33,930 nucleotides of DNA from Pseudomonadota bacterium (GTDB lineage Bacteria > Myxococcota_A > Bradymonadia > UBA4248), in assembly GCA_017421975.1 (NCBI GenBank), contig JAFOHE010000317.1, positions 1 to 33,930 on the forward strand, given 5' to 3'. The notes under the pieces are model-generated. The model did no database searches, was not told the origin of the DNA, and saw only the letters and a program-made list of their open reading frames with translations. The translations under genes were made by a program, and so were the position numbers. Below, in pieces: positions 520-33,648 of this stretch (its first letter is position 1; the number at the start of each line of letters is the position of its first letter).

Positions 520-630
520 GGGGGCGTTGCGGGGGTGTCCCCCGCATTGGGGGTAGCGGCGTATGTTGACATATAGAGACGCTTTGAGCGTCTCTATATG
601 TCAACATAGGCGCGTAGGGGGCATCCCCCT
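520..630 (-). repeat. Long hairpin element, copy A (variable 22-bp stem, conserved flanks)
   Basis: Central hairpin 562-608: 22 perfectly paired bases and a 3-nt loop, beginning TAT and ending ATA. On the minus strand the ATA is followed by an unpaired C and then GCCGC, the base stem. Outside lie two small GC-rich hairpins: TGCGGGGG/CCCCCGCA near 528-546 and GGGGG/CCCCC near 617-629. The flanks match copies at 13731-13846 and 17482-17600 almost base for base, while the 22-bp stem shares no sequence with theirs beyond its ends. It lies 13 nt beyond the folP stop codon and could act as its terminator, although no T-run follows. Confidence 0.8.
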
Positions 631-7647: not shown

Positions 7648-7741
7648 CAGGCTATGGGCAGTATGCCCATACGCCTGTCCTGTCATCCTATGGCTTTCGC
7701 CATACGGATGACTTGACCTGTGACTGAAGGTGCGTCACAGG
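7648..7741 (+). repeat. Tandem hairpin units (locus E) downstream of the symporter gene
   Basis: Unit E1, 7648-7677: CAGGC, TATGGGCA, loop, TGCCCATA, unpaired C, GCCTG. Unit E2, 7682-7712: GTCATCC, TATGGC, TTTC loop, GCCATA, unpaired C, GGATGAC. A third hairpin at 7717-7741 (CCTGTGAC/GTCACAGG, 9-nt loop) lacks the TAT/ATA part. E1 and E2 share the junction and bulge of the other loci but not their stem sequences. The array ends 20 nt from the symporter stop codon, on the antisense orientation to that gene. Confidence 0.75.
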
Positions 7742-13730: not shown

Positions 13731-13846
13731 GGGGGAAGTGTCCCTCTGCGCGGCTATTTTCCGAAAGTAGAGACGTGTCGTGACACGTATCTACTTTCGG
13801 AAAATACGCCGCTACCCCCTCTGCGGGGACACCCCGCAGCGCCCCG
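13731..13846 (+). repeat. Long hairpin element, copy C (25-bp variable stem)
   Basis: Central hairpin 13755-13806: two 25-nt arms with a single mismatch, beginning TAT and ending ATA, then an unpaired C and GCCGC pairing with GCGGC before it. The flank GCTACCCCCTCTGCGGGG and the outer block beginning GGGGGAAGT match the reverse complements of the copies at 520-630 and 17482-17600. The stem sequence is its own. It ends 22 nt from the stop of the zinc-ribbon gene, antisense to it. Confidence 0.8.
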
Positions 13847-13868: not shown

Positions 13869-15599
13869 TTAATGCAGTGGGACGGTATCAAGAAGCAGTT
13901 TCTGGACATTCGGGTTTTCGCGATCCCCCTGGATGTGAAGAACAATATTGATAAACTGCTCCACTTTGACGTTTCCGTCTGTGGTAATGCGGATAGACTG
14001 TTGTTTTGCGGATTTGAGTCCACTCAAGGCAGGCTGGATATTTGTGTAGATGACTTTTCCGCCGAGGAATTCGTCGCGGAGCTCAAAGATGGGTTCATTT
14101 GCCTCATTGAGCATGAGCGGTTCACCTTTATCGTTCGAGCGTCTGAGGACGAGATCGGAACGCGTAATTTTGAGCTGTGTATTTGGCGCCATTTCGTAGC
14201 TATAAATATAGGTTTCGTGATCCGGCCAGTCGAGGGGTTCAATCGAAACAGCGGAAACGCCGGTCGAAGTTGAACCGCCGATGAGGATTTGACGCCGCGT
14301 CGGTCCGAGTGTGTACATCAGTCGATAGATGGTACTCATGGGCAGAGAACCGTCGACGAGGAGGATGATTGGTATTTGTGATGGCGTGTCACGGTCTGCA
14401 TGGGCATACGTGTAAAGTTTTTGGTTGAAGGCGTCGGAGTCTTTGAACTCGTCGAGGGACATGACTTTGTTATTATTGTAGAGAATGCCCGCGCTCTCTG
14501 AAACGCCGATAAGGATGCCTTCTTTGATGTCATCGGTACTAAGCGGAATGGAATTGGGGATATTTGCCTTTGTCTGAGCCGCGATTTCTTTGAATGTCAG
14601 CGGTTTTGCGGGCGTGCCTTTGACGACGATTTCGCCATCTGAAGTGATTTCATGTTCAACTTTTTCGGGCTGATTGACGATGATTGCCGTGACGATGATA
14701 CCGATCAGCGCCAGTCCGATCAGCGCCCCCGAAATGATGAATGCAAGTTTTGGCAAAGAGCGGTAAAACATGACGATCGGATTGCCGCTTTTTGTACCGT
14801 ACATTTTCTCGACGTCGCGCAAGTCGATCTGATGCGTCATCTGGTCGTTTCCTTTGTTAGGCAGGGCTTGACCGATGATGATTTGTCCCGCAGCGGCTGC
14901 TTGCGGCGACGGACTGGAAGGTGTGGGTAAATTCGAAAAGTCTGGTGCATCGAGAGCGACGGTGGCGGCGCCCCCACGATTTGACTCGTTCCATTCGCCG
15001 CCACTGTTTCCCCAGTCGTTGGCATCTGCAGAACTGGTATCGACATCACTGAGATCAAGTGCGACGGTACGTTCGCTGCCTTCGTATTTGGGTGGTGCGG
15101 ACGGAGCACCACCACCGGTGAAATGCTCAATATCATCGATATCAAGGCCGACGGTCTTCATGTTGACTTGTTCTGCAGGTGTACCGGCATTGTACTGCGG
15201 CTGGTTACCCCATTGTGCGTCATTGCCGTACTGCGGCTGGTTACCCCATTGTGCGTCATTGCCGTACTGCGGCTGGTTTCCCCACTGTGCGTCATTGCCG
15301 TACTGCGGCTGGTTACCCCACTGTGCGTCATTGCCGTACTGCGGCTGGTTACCCCACTGTGCGTCATTGCCGTACTGCGGCTGGTTACCCCACTGTGCGT
15401 CATTGCCGTACTGTGGCTGGTTACCCCACTGAGCGCCATTACCGTACTGTGGCTGATTTCCCCACTGGGCGTCATTGCCGTAGCCATTCTGTGCTGGTAC
15501 GAGCGGTTCCATACAGTTCTGGCAGACAGCGCCCTGTTGGGCATACATTTGATCATCAATAGTATATGTACTCTGACAACGCGGACAGATTAACAGCAT
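13869..15599 (-). CDS. Zinc-ribbon, Gln/Asn-repeat membrane protein (MJ0042-type finger)
   Basis: 576 residues. It opens with a zinc ribbon CPRC ... CQNC (Cys 5, 8, 26, 29) of the MJ0042 type found at the start of many myxobacterial proteins. Next are eight near-perfect 12-residue repeats of GNDAQWGNQPQY (about residues 41-136), an acidic linker with two VALD(L/A)-type motifs, one membrane helix (about 281-304), and an outer domain of about 270 residues. The stretch IPIILLVDGSLPMSTIYRLM faintly recalls ExbD/TolR periplasmic domains; this is only a suggestion. The ATG at 15599 has GAGG 7 nt upstream. Topology would put the zinc finger and repeats inside the cytoplasm. Function unknown; a signalling or scaffold role is plausible. 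Confidence 0.8.
   Translation of the reverse strand: MLLICPRCQSTYTIDDQMYAQQGAVCQNCMEPLVPAQNGYGNDAQWGNQPQYGNGAQWGNQPQYGNDAQWGNQPQYGNDAQWGNQPQYGNDAQWGNQPQYGNDAQWGNQPQYGNDAQWGNQPQYGNDAQWGNQPQYNAGTPAEQVNMKTVGLDIDDIEHFTGGGAPSAPPKYEGSERTVALDLSDVDTSSADANDWGNSGGEWNESNRGGAATVALDAPDFSNLPTPSSPSPQAAAAGQIIIGQALPNKGNDQMTHQIDLRDVEKMYGTKSGNPIVMFYRSLPKLAFIISGALIGLALIGIIVTAIIVNQPEKVEHEITSDGEIVVKGTPAKPLTFKEIAAQTKANIPNSIPLSTDDIKEGILIGVSESAGILYNNNKVMSLDEFKDSDAFNQKLYTYAHADRDTPSQIPIILLVDGSLPMSTIYRLMYTLGPTRRQILIGGSTSTGVSAVSIEPLDWPDHETYIYSYEMAPNTQLKITRSDLVLRRSNDKGEPLMLNEANEPIFELRDEFLGGKVIYTNIQPALSGLKSAKQQSIRITTDGNVKVEQFINIVLHIQGDRENPNVQKLLLDTVPLH
15192..15479. repeat. Eight 36-bp tandem repeats inside a gene
   Basis: Eight in-frame copies of a 36-bp unit (TACTGCGGCTGGTTACCCCA and continuing on the plus strand) encode the 12-residue Gln/Asn/Trp repeats of the zinc-ribbon protein. 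The central copies are almost identical in DNA, with only third-position and single-base differences; the outer ones vary more. This suggests recent expansion and possible length variation between strains. Confidence 0.95.
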
Positions 15600-15904
15600 G
15601 AACAAACCTCGGCGTCAAATAATTACGCGCTGAAATTAGCGCAAACTTATTATAATGAGTTATCTCAATTTTCAAAACCACAAATATGCGCCACCTTTAA
15701 GGATTTTTTTTGCCTGACCTTATCATGGCCTAAAACTGGAAATTCTGTCTAAAGTGTGGTAAAAGCATCAAGCTAATTTTGTTCTCTTTGTATGGAGACA
15801 AAAGAGCCTCTGCCTGAGTGCAGATAACGCAGTTTTGACTGCTCCAAAATAGAGTTATGGATCTGTTGGATCCTGTGATGCGCGTGCGATAAGGAGATGC
15901 CGTA
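15600..15904. other. Divergent intergenic region between zinc-ribbon and barrel genes
   Basis: 305 nt with no gene. On the minus strand TTGAAA (15675 to 15670) and a perfect TATAAT (15654 to 15649) are 15 nt apart and can serve the zinc-ribbon gene; the TATAAT overlaps another on the plus strand at 15651-15656. Toward the barrel gene there are two small hairpins (CTCTTTGT/ACAAAAGAG near 15784-15807 and TCTGC/GCAGA near 15809-15824) and a TTGACT at 15835-15840 without a good -10. Confidence 0.45.
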
Positions 15905-17481: not shown

Positions 17482-17600
17482 GGGGGCGTTGCGGGGGCAG
17501 GCGCCCACGCAGAGGGGGTAGCGGCGTATGTTCAAAACATGGCTGCCGTTTCACGGCAGCCATGTTTTGAACATAGCTGCGTAGGGGGAGACTTCCCCCG
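17482..17600 (-). repeat. Long hairpin element, copy B (23-bp variable stem)
   Basis: Central hairpin 17527-17575: 23 perfectly paired bases around a TTC loop, TAT at one end and ATA at the other. The flank AGGGGGTAGCGGCG before it and TAGCTGCGTAGGGGG after it match copies A and C. The small outer hairpin (TGCG...GGGC with GCCC...CGCA) differs in sequence from the equivalent hairpin of copy A but still pairs. Unlike most other copies it lies about 120 nt from the preceding stop, beyond that gene's own terminator. Confidence 0.8.
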
Positions 17601-24110: not shown

Positions 24111-24182
24111 GCGCCAGCTATGGTCCGTTGGCCCATACGCTGGCGCGTCGTGGCTTCTCGCGTTCGCTCAATACGCCACGAC
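24111..24182 (+). repeat. Hairpin units (locus G) between convergent genes
   Basis: Unit G1, 24111-24146: GCGCCAGC, TATGG..., ...CCATA, unpaired C, GCTGGCGC; an 8-bp base stem with the family junction. Unit G2, 24147-24182: GTCGTGGC and GCCACGAC pair (8 bp) around an interior ending AATA then unpaired C, but the left TAT is missing. G2 abuts the stop codon of the L,D-transpeptidase on the other strand. The pair fills the whole gap between two convergent genes and may terminate both. Confidence 0.72.
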
Positions 24183-31756: not shown

Positions 31757-33256
31757 ATGGCGAATCAGGGGCGTTTTCCAGACTATATCAGTCCGATGAA
31801 AATCTCATATTTTGACGGCAAACCGACGACGATTCATCTTCGCAAATGCCGTATTGTGACGCTAGAAATAGCGAACCGTCGTGAATGGACGTTTGAACAC
31901 GGTCTGATTACAGTGGGTTCTCATGACGACAACAACCTTGTCGTCCACGGTGAGACGATTTCTCCCCATCATGCGCAGATTATTCAGGAAGATGATGCTT
32001 ATGTCATCCGCGATCTCGATTCGGTGACGGGGACGTATGTCAATCAGGTGCGCATTAAGGAAGCCTATCTCTCGCCGGGTTGCCAGATGCGTTTTGGGTC
32101 GGAAGAATTCATCTTTCAGCCGCTCGATGAAGATGTGGCTGTCGTGCCCTCCAATGAAGAAAAATTCGGTGATATCATTGGTGGTAACGTTAAAATGCGA
32201 GAAATTTACGGTATTCTCGAAAAAATTGCGCCGACGAATGCCACTGTCGTCATCGAAGGTGAAACTGGAACTGGCAAAGAAGTTGTGGCGCATACGCTCC
32301 ATAAAATGAGCCTCCGTGCCAAAAAGCCTTTTGTCGTTTTTGATTGTGGTGCCGTGCCTGAATCTCTCATCGAAAGCGAGTTGTTCGGCCACGAAAAAGG
32401 ATCGTTCACAGGTGCGATTATGACGCGTCAGGGCTTGTTTGAACTCGCGCAGGGCGGGACGATCTTTCTCGACGAACTTGGAGAGCTTAACCTGGAACTT
32501 CAGCCCAAGCTCCTTCGCGTCCTCGAGAATAGAGAAGTGCGGCGCGTCGGCGCGGCGAAAGCTATTCCTGTTGATGTGCGCGTGATTGCTGCGACGAACC
32601 GCAAACTTGAAGAGGAAGTGAAGAATAATCATTTCCGCGAAGACCTTTTTTACCGGCTTTCGGTCGTGCGCATTTTCTTACCGCCGCTTCGCGACCGCAT
32701 CGACGATTTGCCGCTCCTCGTCAAACACTTTCTCAAGAACTCCTCGTTCAATCGCGATCGCAATTCAAACCTCAAGTTGCGTTCGATTTCGTGTCAGGCT
32801 TTGAAGGCGATGCAAAATTACCGCTGGCCTGGGAACGTCCGCGAACTTCTCAACGTCGTCGAACGCGCCTGCTCACTTGCGGATGGGGATTGCATTGAGA
32901 TTGGCGATCTTCCCGAATACGTGGCGCGTTGTGCGGGCGTCGAAGAGCCAAAACCCGCGCCTGCGCCGTTGCCTGTCCCTGATCCCGCGCCCGTCGTTGA
33001 AACGCCTGCGCCAGCTGGGAATGAGTCGTCAATCAAAATGTCCGCTTTTACGAACAAAACGTTTAAGGATGCCAAAGAAGCCTGGCTCAGTGCGTTTGAA
33101 GGCGATTACCTGAAGGCTGTTCTCGAACGCAATAATTATAATATTTCGCGTGCCGCGCGTGAGTCCGAAATCGATCGCAAGTACTTGCGAAAATTGATGA
33201 AAAAATATGATATTGTAGCACCTGATTCTTCGGACAACGGAAACGATGAGGATTAG
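31757..33256 (+). CDS. Sigma-54-dependent activator with N-terminal FHA domain
   Basis: 499 residues; activates transcription by RNA polymerase-sigma-54. An FHA domain (about 35-120: TVGSHDDNN, ISPHHAQII, DLDSVTGTYVN) replaces the usual receiver domain, so input is probably through Ser/Thr phosphorylation; the Arg normally following the first Gly is Ser here. The AAA+ domain has Walker A GETGTGKE (168-175), the sigma-54 contact loop GSFTGA (215-220, usual GAFTGA), Walker B GGTIFLDE and WPGNVREL. A Pro/Ala linker (about 393-420) leads to a Fis-type helix-turn-helix (NYNISRAARESEIDRKYLRKL). GAGGAGG precedes the ATG. FHA-type activators are frequent in myxobacteria. No cognate kinase gene is in view. 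Confidence 0.94.
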   Translation: MANQGRFPDYISPMKISYFDGKPTTIHLRKCRIVTLEIANRREWTFEHGLITVGSHDDNNLVVHGETISPHHAQIIQEDDAYVIRDLDSVTGTYVNQVRIKEAYLSPGCQMRFGSEEFIFQPLDEDVAVVPSNEEKFGDIIGGNVKMREIYGILEKIAPTNATVVIEGETGTGKEVVAHTLHKMSLRAKKPFVVFDCGAVPESLIESELFGHEKGSFTGAIMTRQGLFELAQGGTIFLDELGELNLELQPKLLRVLENREVRRVGAAKAIPVDVRVIAATNRKLEEEVKNNHFREDLFYRLSVVRIFLPPLRDRIDDLPLLVKHFLKNSSFNRDRNSNLKLRSISCQALKAMQNYRWPGNVRELLNVVERACSLADGDCIEIGDLPEYVARCAGVEEPKPAPAPLPVPDPAPVVETPAPAGNESSIKMSAFTNKTFKDAKEAWLSAFEGDYLKAVLERNNYNISRAARESEIDRKYLRKLMKKYDIVAPDSSDNGNDED

Positions 33257-33257
33257 T

Positions 33258-33379
33258 GGGGCAAGCTATATCGGCATTGAGACGCGTCTCAATGCCGATA
33301 TACGCTGTGCCCAGCGGCGCTATTTGCTTCGCAAATACGCGCGCTTTGCCTGTGCCTATCGCTCGCGATATGGCACAGG
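33258..33379 (+). repeat. Three tandem hairpin units (locus D) after the activator gene
   Basis: D1: base stem GGGCA-AGC, an exact 36-bp palindrome (33267-33302) that begins TATATCGG and ends CCGATATA, unpaired C, then GCTGTGCCC. D2 (33317-33342): GCGC, TATTTGC, TTC loop, GCAAATA, unpaired C, GCGC. D3 (33349-33379): CCTGTGCC, TATCGC, GCGATA, unpaired T, GGCACAGG. All three keep the TAT/ATA junction and one extra base on the 3' side while their stems are unrelated. The array starts within a few bases of the stop codon. Confidence 0.78.
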
Positions 33380-33648
33380 TGATATTTTATAAAAGAACAG
33401 CATGGCGATTCGCTTCGTAAACCAGTTCTTTGATGGCTGTTACATTAGCCTGTTTTGGTTTCATGGCTGGCGTAACGACGAGAAGCACAGAAAATGTCGT
33501 CGTCTTCCACGCACTTGAGCTTGGAACTTTGCGTGTGCTAAAGCCCCATCGTCGCTTTTTGCGAAAGGGGATAGTGGGGATGGGCACTAAACAGTGAATG
33601 TATCGTAACAGATGGTGTCAAAAAGTTTCCTGTTTTCGCAAAATGTAC
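33380..33648. other. Intergenic stretch without a convincing gene
   Basis: Short reading frames exist on both strands (about 66 codons leftward from a GTG near 33587; about 38 codons rightward from an ATG near 33402), but neither has a ribosome site or a recognisable product. The region may hold a decayed gene. Confidence 0.4.

Follow-up and report, generated by a model that had tools for sequence, protein, structure and literature searches.

The three tandem hairpins D1, D2 and D3 at positions 33259-33379 of the window, i.e. of the whole stretch of 33,930 nucleotides analysed here, are ordinary members of a dispersed repeat class. Nearly all of its units share a bulged joint, and both stems vary in sequence yet stay largely paired. 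With a probability of roughly 0.53, we take D1-D3 to be a REP-like dispersed repeat that is read as a folded strand at this joint and whose stems are rewritten. The class is filed here as REP-like and set apart from the GTAG REPs. The array starts 2 bp past the stop codon of a sigma-54 activator gene and comprises the following features:

31757-33256, plus strand: transcription activator gene with FHA domain, sigma-54 interaction domain and HTH_8 (Pfam PF00498, PF00158, PF02954; ORF)
33259-33312, plus strand: unit D1, outer stem GGGCA+AGC / GCT+TGCCC, bulged C33303, G33307 unpaired
33267-33302, no strand: exact 36-bp palindrome without loop, the interior of D1 (rechecked in the sequence)
33313-33345, plus strand: unit D2, inner hairpin TATTTGC-ttc-GCAAATA (33321-33337), bulged C33338, G33317 unpaired in the fold
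33349-33379, plus strand: unit D3, outer stem CCTGTGCC/GGCACAGG, inner stem TATCGC-tc-GCGATA (33357-33370), bulged T33371

Each unit runs from the outer stem through TAT, the inner stem, ATA and one unpaired base to the return of the outer stem, the unpaired base being C in D1 and D2 and T in D3. Folding of 33255-33385 as single-stranded DNA yields three hairpins with the joint base unpaired in each. Hereby, the fold reaches -48.6 kcal/mol, whereas 200 shuffled sequences average -23.74 (sd 2.75), and none of them is as stable (z = -9.04). The initial annotation had claimed three different hairpins in tandem and an exact loop-less 36-bp palindrome, and both stand, the former on the sequence as well as on the fold; the unpaired G33307 (D1) and G33317 (D2) are additions to it. 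Its argument that the tandem diversity speaks against duplication of a single unit is likewise upheld, D1-D3 being different members of one family. The inner hairpin of D3 is also present at L015:3807 of the same genome, inside another outer stem. That of D2 recurs in the window's genome (G000:C252:8555) and, again inside another outer stem, in a second family genome (G006:C97:38774). The sole match of D1 in its own genome is D1 itself. What does not hold is its conclusion, drawn from the missing loop, that the 36-bp palindrome has to be of recent origin or protected. The same genome contains a longer palindrome, likewise without a loop and with 26-bp arms (L059:15269-15320), and the stability argument also fails because the repeat class is present in all 8 family genomes examined. 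Palindromes become hard to maintain from roughly 100 bp upward, and the D1 palindrome needs no special protection. Within the window, no Rfam family matched at gathering score and no tRNA or tmRNA was found; the phage and plasmid collections searched with 33200-33420 gave no match.

Sequence scans located further units and unit-like hairpins in the window:

7653-7672, plus strand: class unit, inner hairpin and bulged C
7689-7705, plus strand: class unit in tandem with the unit at 7653-7672
24119-24138, plus strand: class unit, outer stem GCGCCAGC/GCTGGCGC, inner stem with one mismatch
13755-13807, plus strand: class unit of the frame type CCCC...CTACCCC with a long inner stem
562-608, minus strand: unit-like hairpin, GGGGGTAGCGGCG frame, 22-bp inner stem, mismatch in the outer stem
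17527-17575, minus strand: unit-like hairpin, GGGGGTAGCGGCG frame, 23-bp inner stem, G-T in the outer stem

Long inner stems in the window's genome (window positions 562, 13755 and 33267; L059) have a GAGACG motif close to their tips in common, which suggests, from the sequence, that a second palindrome family may have been inserted into hairpin tips. A separate observation concerns positions 15120-15551, where a 36-bp tandem repeat is present in nine overlapping register copies. It lies inside a long minus-strand ORF (13869-15605) and is possibly a coding repeat.

Over the whole class, the consensus consists of an outer stem ending in C, TAT, the inner stem, ATA, one unpaired base, G and the outer stem. 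Among 319 non-redundant units closing with C-G (copies with identical 25-nt flanks were dropped), which contain 235 different inner sequences, the unpaired base is C in 317, T in 2 and never A or G. The T annotated in D3, as opposed to C in D1 and D2, is thus both correct and rare. While the first unit counts admitted C or T bulges only, a recount with all letters again gave 317 and 2, and addition of the later loci L218-L257 resulted in C 448 and T 2 of 450 units; the T-run, CTAC and gene-context counts given below were made without these loci. Units without the closing C-G pair were left out; these were 11 of 146 in the density scan, while the recount had 91 among 410. A closing G-C pair together with a bulged G is found in 82 of the 91. 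In 81 of the 82, the G-bulge reading represents the same hairpin on the opposite strand in a shifted register, and in 79 the outer stem is longer when the hairpin is read with the C bulge. Given these 82 alternative readings, the strand assignment of the units is a soft spot.

The joint also emerges from a scan that is neutral as to motif. It covered 292 kb of the window's genome, and one hairpin may count at several depths. Of 45 nested hairpins with a one-base bulge, 19 have TAT and the bulge on the 3' side, compared to 3 for the next triplet, which exceeds chance; TAT is found in 6 of 210 cases without a bulge and in 0 of 20 with a two-base bulge. For the inner stem TATTTGC, the pattern CTATTTGC-loop-GCAAATA-N-G has 272 matches in 8 whole genomes, whereas the same pattern minus the extra base has none, and neither has the reversed control. 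The bulge base is C in 149 and T in 1 of the 150 listed among these 272 matches. As judged by this one inner stem, the bulge is hence conserved (272 with versus 0 without); E. coli-type REPs require an unpaired bulge inside the stem, which may or may not apply to the activity of the present units.

Pairing in the stems can be assessed in copies that share a common frame. With interiors of up to 30 nt, the frame CCCTRCGCGGC[...]GCCGCTACCCC is present in 111 copies and the frame CCCTRCGGCGC[...]GCGCCTACCCC in 76, each in 7 of the 8 family genomes, while reversed controls of the frame patterns gave 0 matches. The window's genome contains 31 copies of CCCTRCGCGGC with 31 different interiors, 29 of which are hairpins of the TAT/ATAC type, i.e. 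they end in ATAC, and 27 of those 29 begin with TAT. These copies were selected by the frame alone, pairing being no criterion. In the arms of the 29 interiors, counted beyond TAT/ATA and minus the two innermost positions, 115 of 129 positions are paired, and the arm identity between different copies amounts to 0.303, compared to 0.26 by chance. Covariation is 0.704 versus 0.137 after shuffling, in 22 units chosen as paired, so that the paired share is biased upward. Interiors may contain further units or palindromes (L029:4394, L054, L003). Both frame patterns allowed an interior length of 0 and no such empty frame was found; insertion of an interior into a finished outer palindrome is thus not demonstrated. 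A second hairpin family with GCTCGC repeats around GGCGCGTGTCACGACACGCGCCTAC-like hairpins is found in the same arrays (L063, L201, L033).

Strict units, i.e. those closing with C-G, were counted in samples of several genomes: 38 in the window's genome (G000; 292 kb), 66 in G005 (344 kb, in stretches chosen around earlier matches), 26 in G004 (122 kb) and 5 in G002 (32 kb), while the 63 kb sampled from outside the family contain none. Hereby, the bulge base is C in 134 cases and T in 1. The resulting density of 1.3-2.1 strict units per 10 kb corresponds, by extrapolation from samples of 32-344 kb, to several hundred units per genome. With genes called by a simple longest-first ORF script, which removed ORFs over arrays only below 200 aa, 242 of 311 units are located between called genes, 28 inside ORFs of at least 200 aa and 41 at edges. 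By density and location, the units are therefore what the term REP denotes: short, high-copy, mainly intergenic palindromes. A covariance model built from 22 units has at least 111 to at least 179 matches in each of 8 family genomes, among them that of the window. In 11 genomes from the same order or class it has none, scoring being limited in both cases to at most 150 first-look candidates per genome. When 188 genomes drawn from the phylum were scored under stricter filters with 38 first-look candidates per genome, 6 matched, all of them in the family. A pattern scan of genome contigs from 84,980 species returned the commonest form in 63 stretches from five metagenome bins, which are labelled Myxococcales or Proteobacteria; two of the bins stem from goat and roe deer omasum and one is UBA4248. 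The D2-type core had 0 matches in viral contigs.

Homologous loci of different genomes show how the units change. At L047/L114 (G005 versus G007; flanks 96% identical over 3.3 kb) the inner stem TATCGC/GCGATA is replaced by TATTTGC/GCAAATA while frame and loop are identical, and the next hairpin differs on both arms as well. One conversion from another copy could explain the changes in both hairpins. At L212/L203 (G006 versus G007; flank 87% identical over 751 bp) a 9-nt interior corresponds to a 38-nt near-palindrome, with the outer stem and the TAT/ATA-C boundaries unchanged. Two units at L202/L208 look as if they had been fused through loss of the stretch between similar stems, and at L200/L209 the homologous gene ends carry unrelated arrays. 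At the same time, interiors are identical at L194/L114 (two units), L168/L186, L202/L208 (one) and L103/L134, the difference at L195/L033 is confined to the loop, and one unit at L200/L209 differs on one side only. Rewriting is thus not constant. Among 186 homologous alignment ends, units are present in both genomes at 16, in one at 46 and in neither at 124; these ends are not independent, since one locus may be counted against more than one genome, and the set includes 14 ends beyond which another alignment follows. Units coincide above chance at less than 80% identity (p = 0.006) and not significantly so above 80% (p = 0.18), indicating that unit placement is somewhat hotspot-like and mostly not conserved. 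The arrays turn over between species.

Two blocks that include arrays are recorded here in their own right. A 1.9-kb segment (L063:5073-6942 versus L201:636-2511) is 93% identical across genera (G000, G001) and ends inside hairpin arrays, which represents either a recent transfer or a binning error. A block of about 1.1 kb (L194:2833-4026 versus L047:1881-1895) with ORFs and two units near its end resembles a gene-plus-array cassette; it is present in G001 and G007 and absent from G005.

The gene context of the units bears on a reading which we regard as doubtful, namely that of an RNA element. Here, a transcribed 3'-end hairpin, acting as terminator or protein-binding stem, would have its bulged C read in RNA, and its stems would evolve by compensatory changes. 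The counts of placed units, T-runs and neighbour orientation that follow took in units with a C or T bulge only. Among 242 placed units, 74 occupy convergent and 30 divergent sites. In G005, 26 convergent units contrast with 9.2 expected by length and 2 divergent units with 15.8, as would suit such an element; the convergent excess is, however, missing in the small samples of G000 (1 versus 3.2 expected) and G004 (3 versus 2.7). A T-run within 12 nt 3' of the outer stem accompanies 48 of the 225 non-frame units, compared to an A-run in 3 (and an A-run before the outer stem in 4), but T-runs are also found 5' of it, in 30 of the 225. T-run units tend to be oriented as a terminator would be, 26 of 37 being entered from their upstream gene (p = 0.02); the corresponding counts are 41 of 66 for frame units (p = 0.06) and 75 of 139 for the remaining ones (p = 0.40). 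Against this, units between co-directional genes do not prefer the gene strand (68 of 138), and neither do the T-run units among them (12 of 20). Non-standard stem pairs comprise 11 GT/TG, 22 AC/CA and 43 others, so that the unit strand shows no G-U excess, i.e. no G-U signature of RNA, and at near-identical loci both arms have changed. An intrinsic terminator is a GC-rich hairpin with a T-run behind it, oriented with the upstream gene, which does not describe the class as a whole. Part of the units may nevertheless have a role as RNA.

Neighbouring units at most 150 bp apart mostly have the same orientation. This holds for 34 of 35 pairs in stretches chosen by position and for 16 of 17 in the named loci, which partly repeat the same DNA. 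As judged by GC skew, there is no clear replication-strand bias; the small G004 sample leans negative (9 of 26 positive). Strand neutrality, the lack of a G-U excess and the shared orientation of neighbours together favour, for the class, recognition of a folded, directional DNA strand.

This is the core of the reading that we prefer, the REP-like repeat read at its bulged joint. The conserved part is the joint C-TAT / ATA-(C)-G, at which two helices meet across one unpaired base, rather than any long sequence. The folded single strand, or a cruciform, is envisaged to be read at this joint by a protein, be it the cell's own or that of a mobile element, by analogy to TnpAREP, which reads the mismatch bulge of the E. 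coli REP. The stems would then need only to be stems and would be free for rewriting as whole palindromes. Such rewriting may proceed by intrastrand template switching, by conversion between copies with a common frame, or by a palindrome being inserted at the tip of a second one, and D1-D3 would represent an array that arose from several rewriting events at the 3' end of a gene. Among the proteins searched, no candidate joint-binding protein common to the family genomes was found; Y1_Tnp is without hit in G003 and G004, both of which hold many units nonetheless. That template switching can create perfect stems and also repair them is documented in PMC8794818. Decidedly less probable is a variant in which a dedicated enzyme reads the bulged joint, cuts the hairpin and re-synthesises its interior in each round, thereby giving every copy a new palindrome. 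If true, hundreds of individually different hairpins per genome would derive from one machine, and the class would be defined by structure. Since identical frames enclose unrelated self-complementary interiors, the origin of the palindromes is directly testable here, along with the upkeep of their pairing, be it by template switching, conversion or a joint-reading enzyme.

We consider it unlikely that the units are GTAG-type REPs of a RAYT/TnpAREP system, in which a Y1 transposase would have moved the frame copies and the other units would be their decayed relatives. It is true that TnpAREP, as far as the text of PMC8266576 at hand goes, needs a bulge, takes C or T there and ignores the sequence of the upper stem. 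CTAC, i.e. GTAG on the other strand, stands beside the outer stem in 72 of 94 frame units, but the tetranucleotide is found at the hairpin foot in only 6 of the 225 non-frame units. Y1_Tnp is present in 6 of 8 family genomes, the window's own included, and among the six Y1 loci of the family that were scanned, two (L160, L163) have units no more than about 300 bp from the gene. G003 (99% complete) and G004, however, contain units and frames without a Y1_Tnp hit. A cognate Y1 gene flanked by the repeat, as in a REPtron, was not found at these loci; instead, the Y1 genes of L158 (G007) and L160 (G005) have a different GTAG repeat, GTAGCCCCCGGTT...ACCGGG, on both sides. Together with L204 (G007:C271, 11480-12420), L158 and L160 show Y1 (IS200/IS605-like) genes between GTAGCCCCCGGTT...ACCGGG repeats, a classical REP arrangement that is separate from the bulged-joint units.

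An attC-like site would be a variable palindrome on which an integron integrase acts in single-stranded form, with one site per gene cassette. Integron attC sites have a variable palindromic interior and a conserved unpaired base and are read as a folded strand, and their boxes are RYYYAAC/GTTRRRY. The variable palindromic interiors, the unpaired base, the tandem units in one orientation and the ORF-plus-array block that G001 and G007 have and G005 lacks would fit this reading. It is largely refuted and very improbable to us: the integrase model TIGR02249 exceeded its cut-off in 0 of 10 genomes, matches below the cut-off also occur in all 14 control genomes, and the joint CTAT/ATA-C-G is without the attC boxes. 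That the palindromes are an assembly or binning artefact of chimeric reads is barely conceivable because the class occurs in all 8 family genomes examined and in 0 of 11 relatives, with a conserved bulge and reversed-pattern controls of 0, even though the five named sources are metagenome bins and several contigs start or end at these repeats.

Compared to known systems, the units come closest to the E. coli-type REP (group 2 TnpAREP/REP, 'REPtron Ec'), which in the accessible descriptions is likewise extragenic, present in many copies and built of lower stem, bulge and upper stem. According to the portion of PMC8266576 available, TnpAREP of E. coli requires an unpaired bulge and cuts with C or T there, while the upper stem-loop plays a non-specific structural role, its sequence not being read. 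In contrast to this type, the GTAG tag is absent from 219 of the 225 non-frame units, the search for a cognate transposase found none, and the bulge consists of one base on one side rather than of an AA-GC mismatch. Moreover, the stems are nearly free here, whereas those of REPs are, in the descriptions at hand, conserved within a type. The GTAG- and CGTC-tagged superfamilies, as portrayed in the available sections of PMC3733652, are small clustered palindromes between co-directional and convergent genes with complementary stem changes and, in part, self-complementary loops of up to 27 bp (Bradyrhizobium GTAG-14); 1-bp bulges occur in GTAG-24, and the CGTC repeats lack a dedicated transposase. 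In many of these families, however, close units have opposite orientations according to the same sections, unlike the 34 of 35 alike here, and their conserved part is a terminal tag instead of an internal joint. The palindromes of Volvox carteri organelles, which in the available text of PMC2670323 are inserted into one another in intergenic DNA, resemble the nested interior palindromes of the present units. Their loops are often TAAA/TTTA and the repeats more than half alike as described there, while here the joint is conserved and the stems are not. Titles and abstracts of the literature, in which subscription papers were few, contained no such repeat class. REPs are usually found and classified by their sequence; here, the sequence is nearly free and the bulged joint is kept, and the class thus escapes similarity searches.
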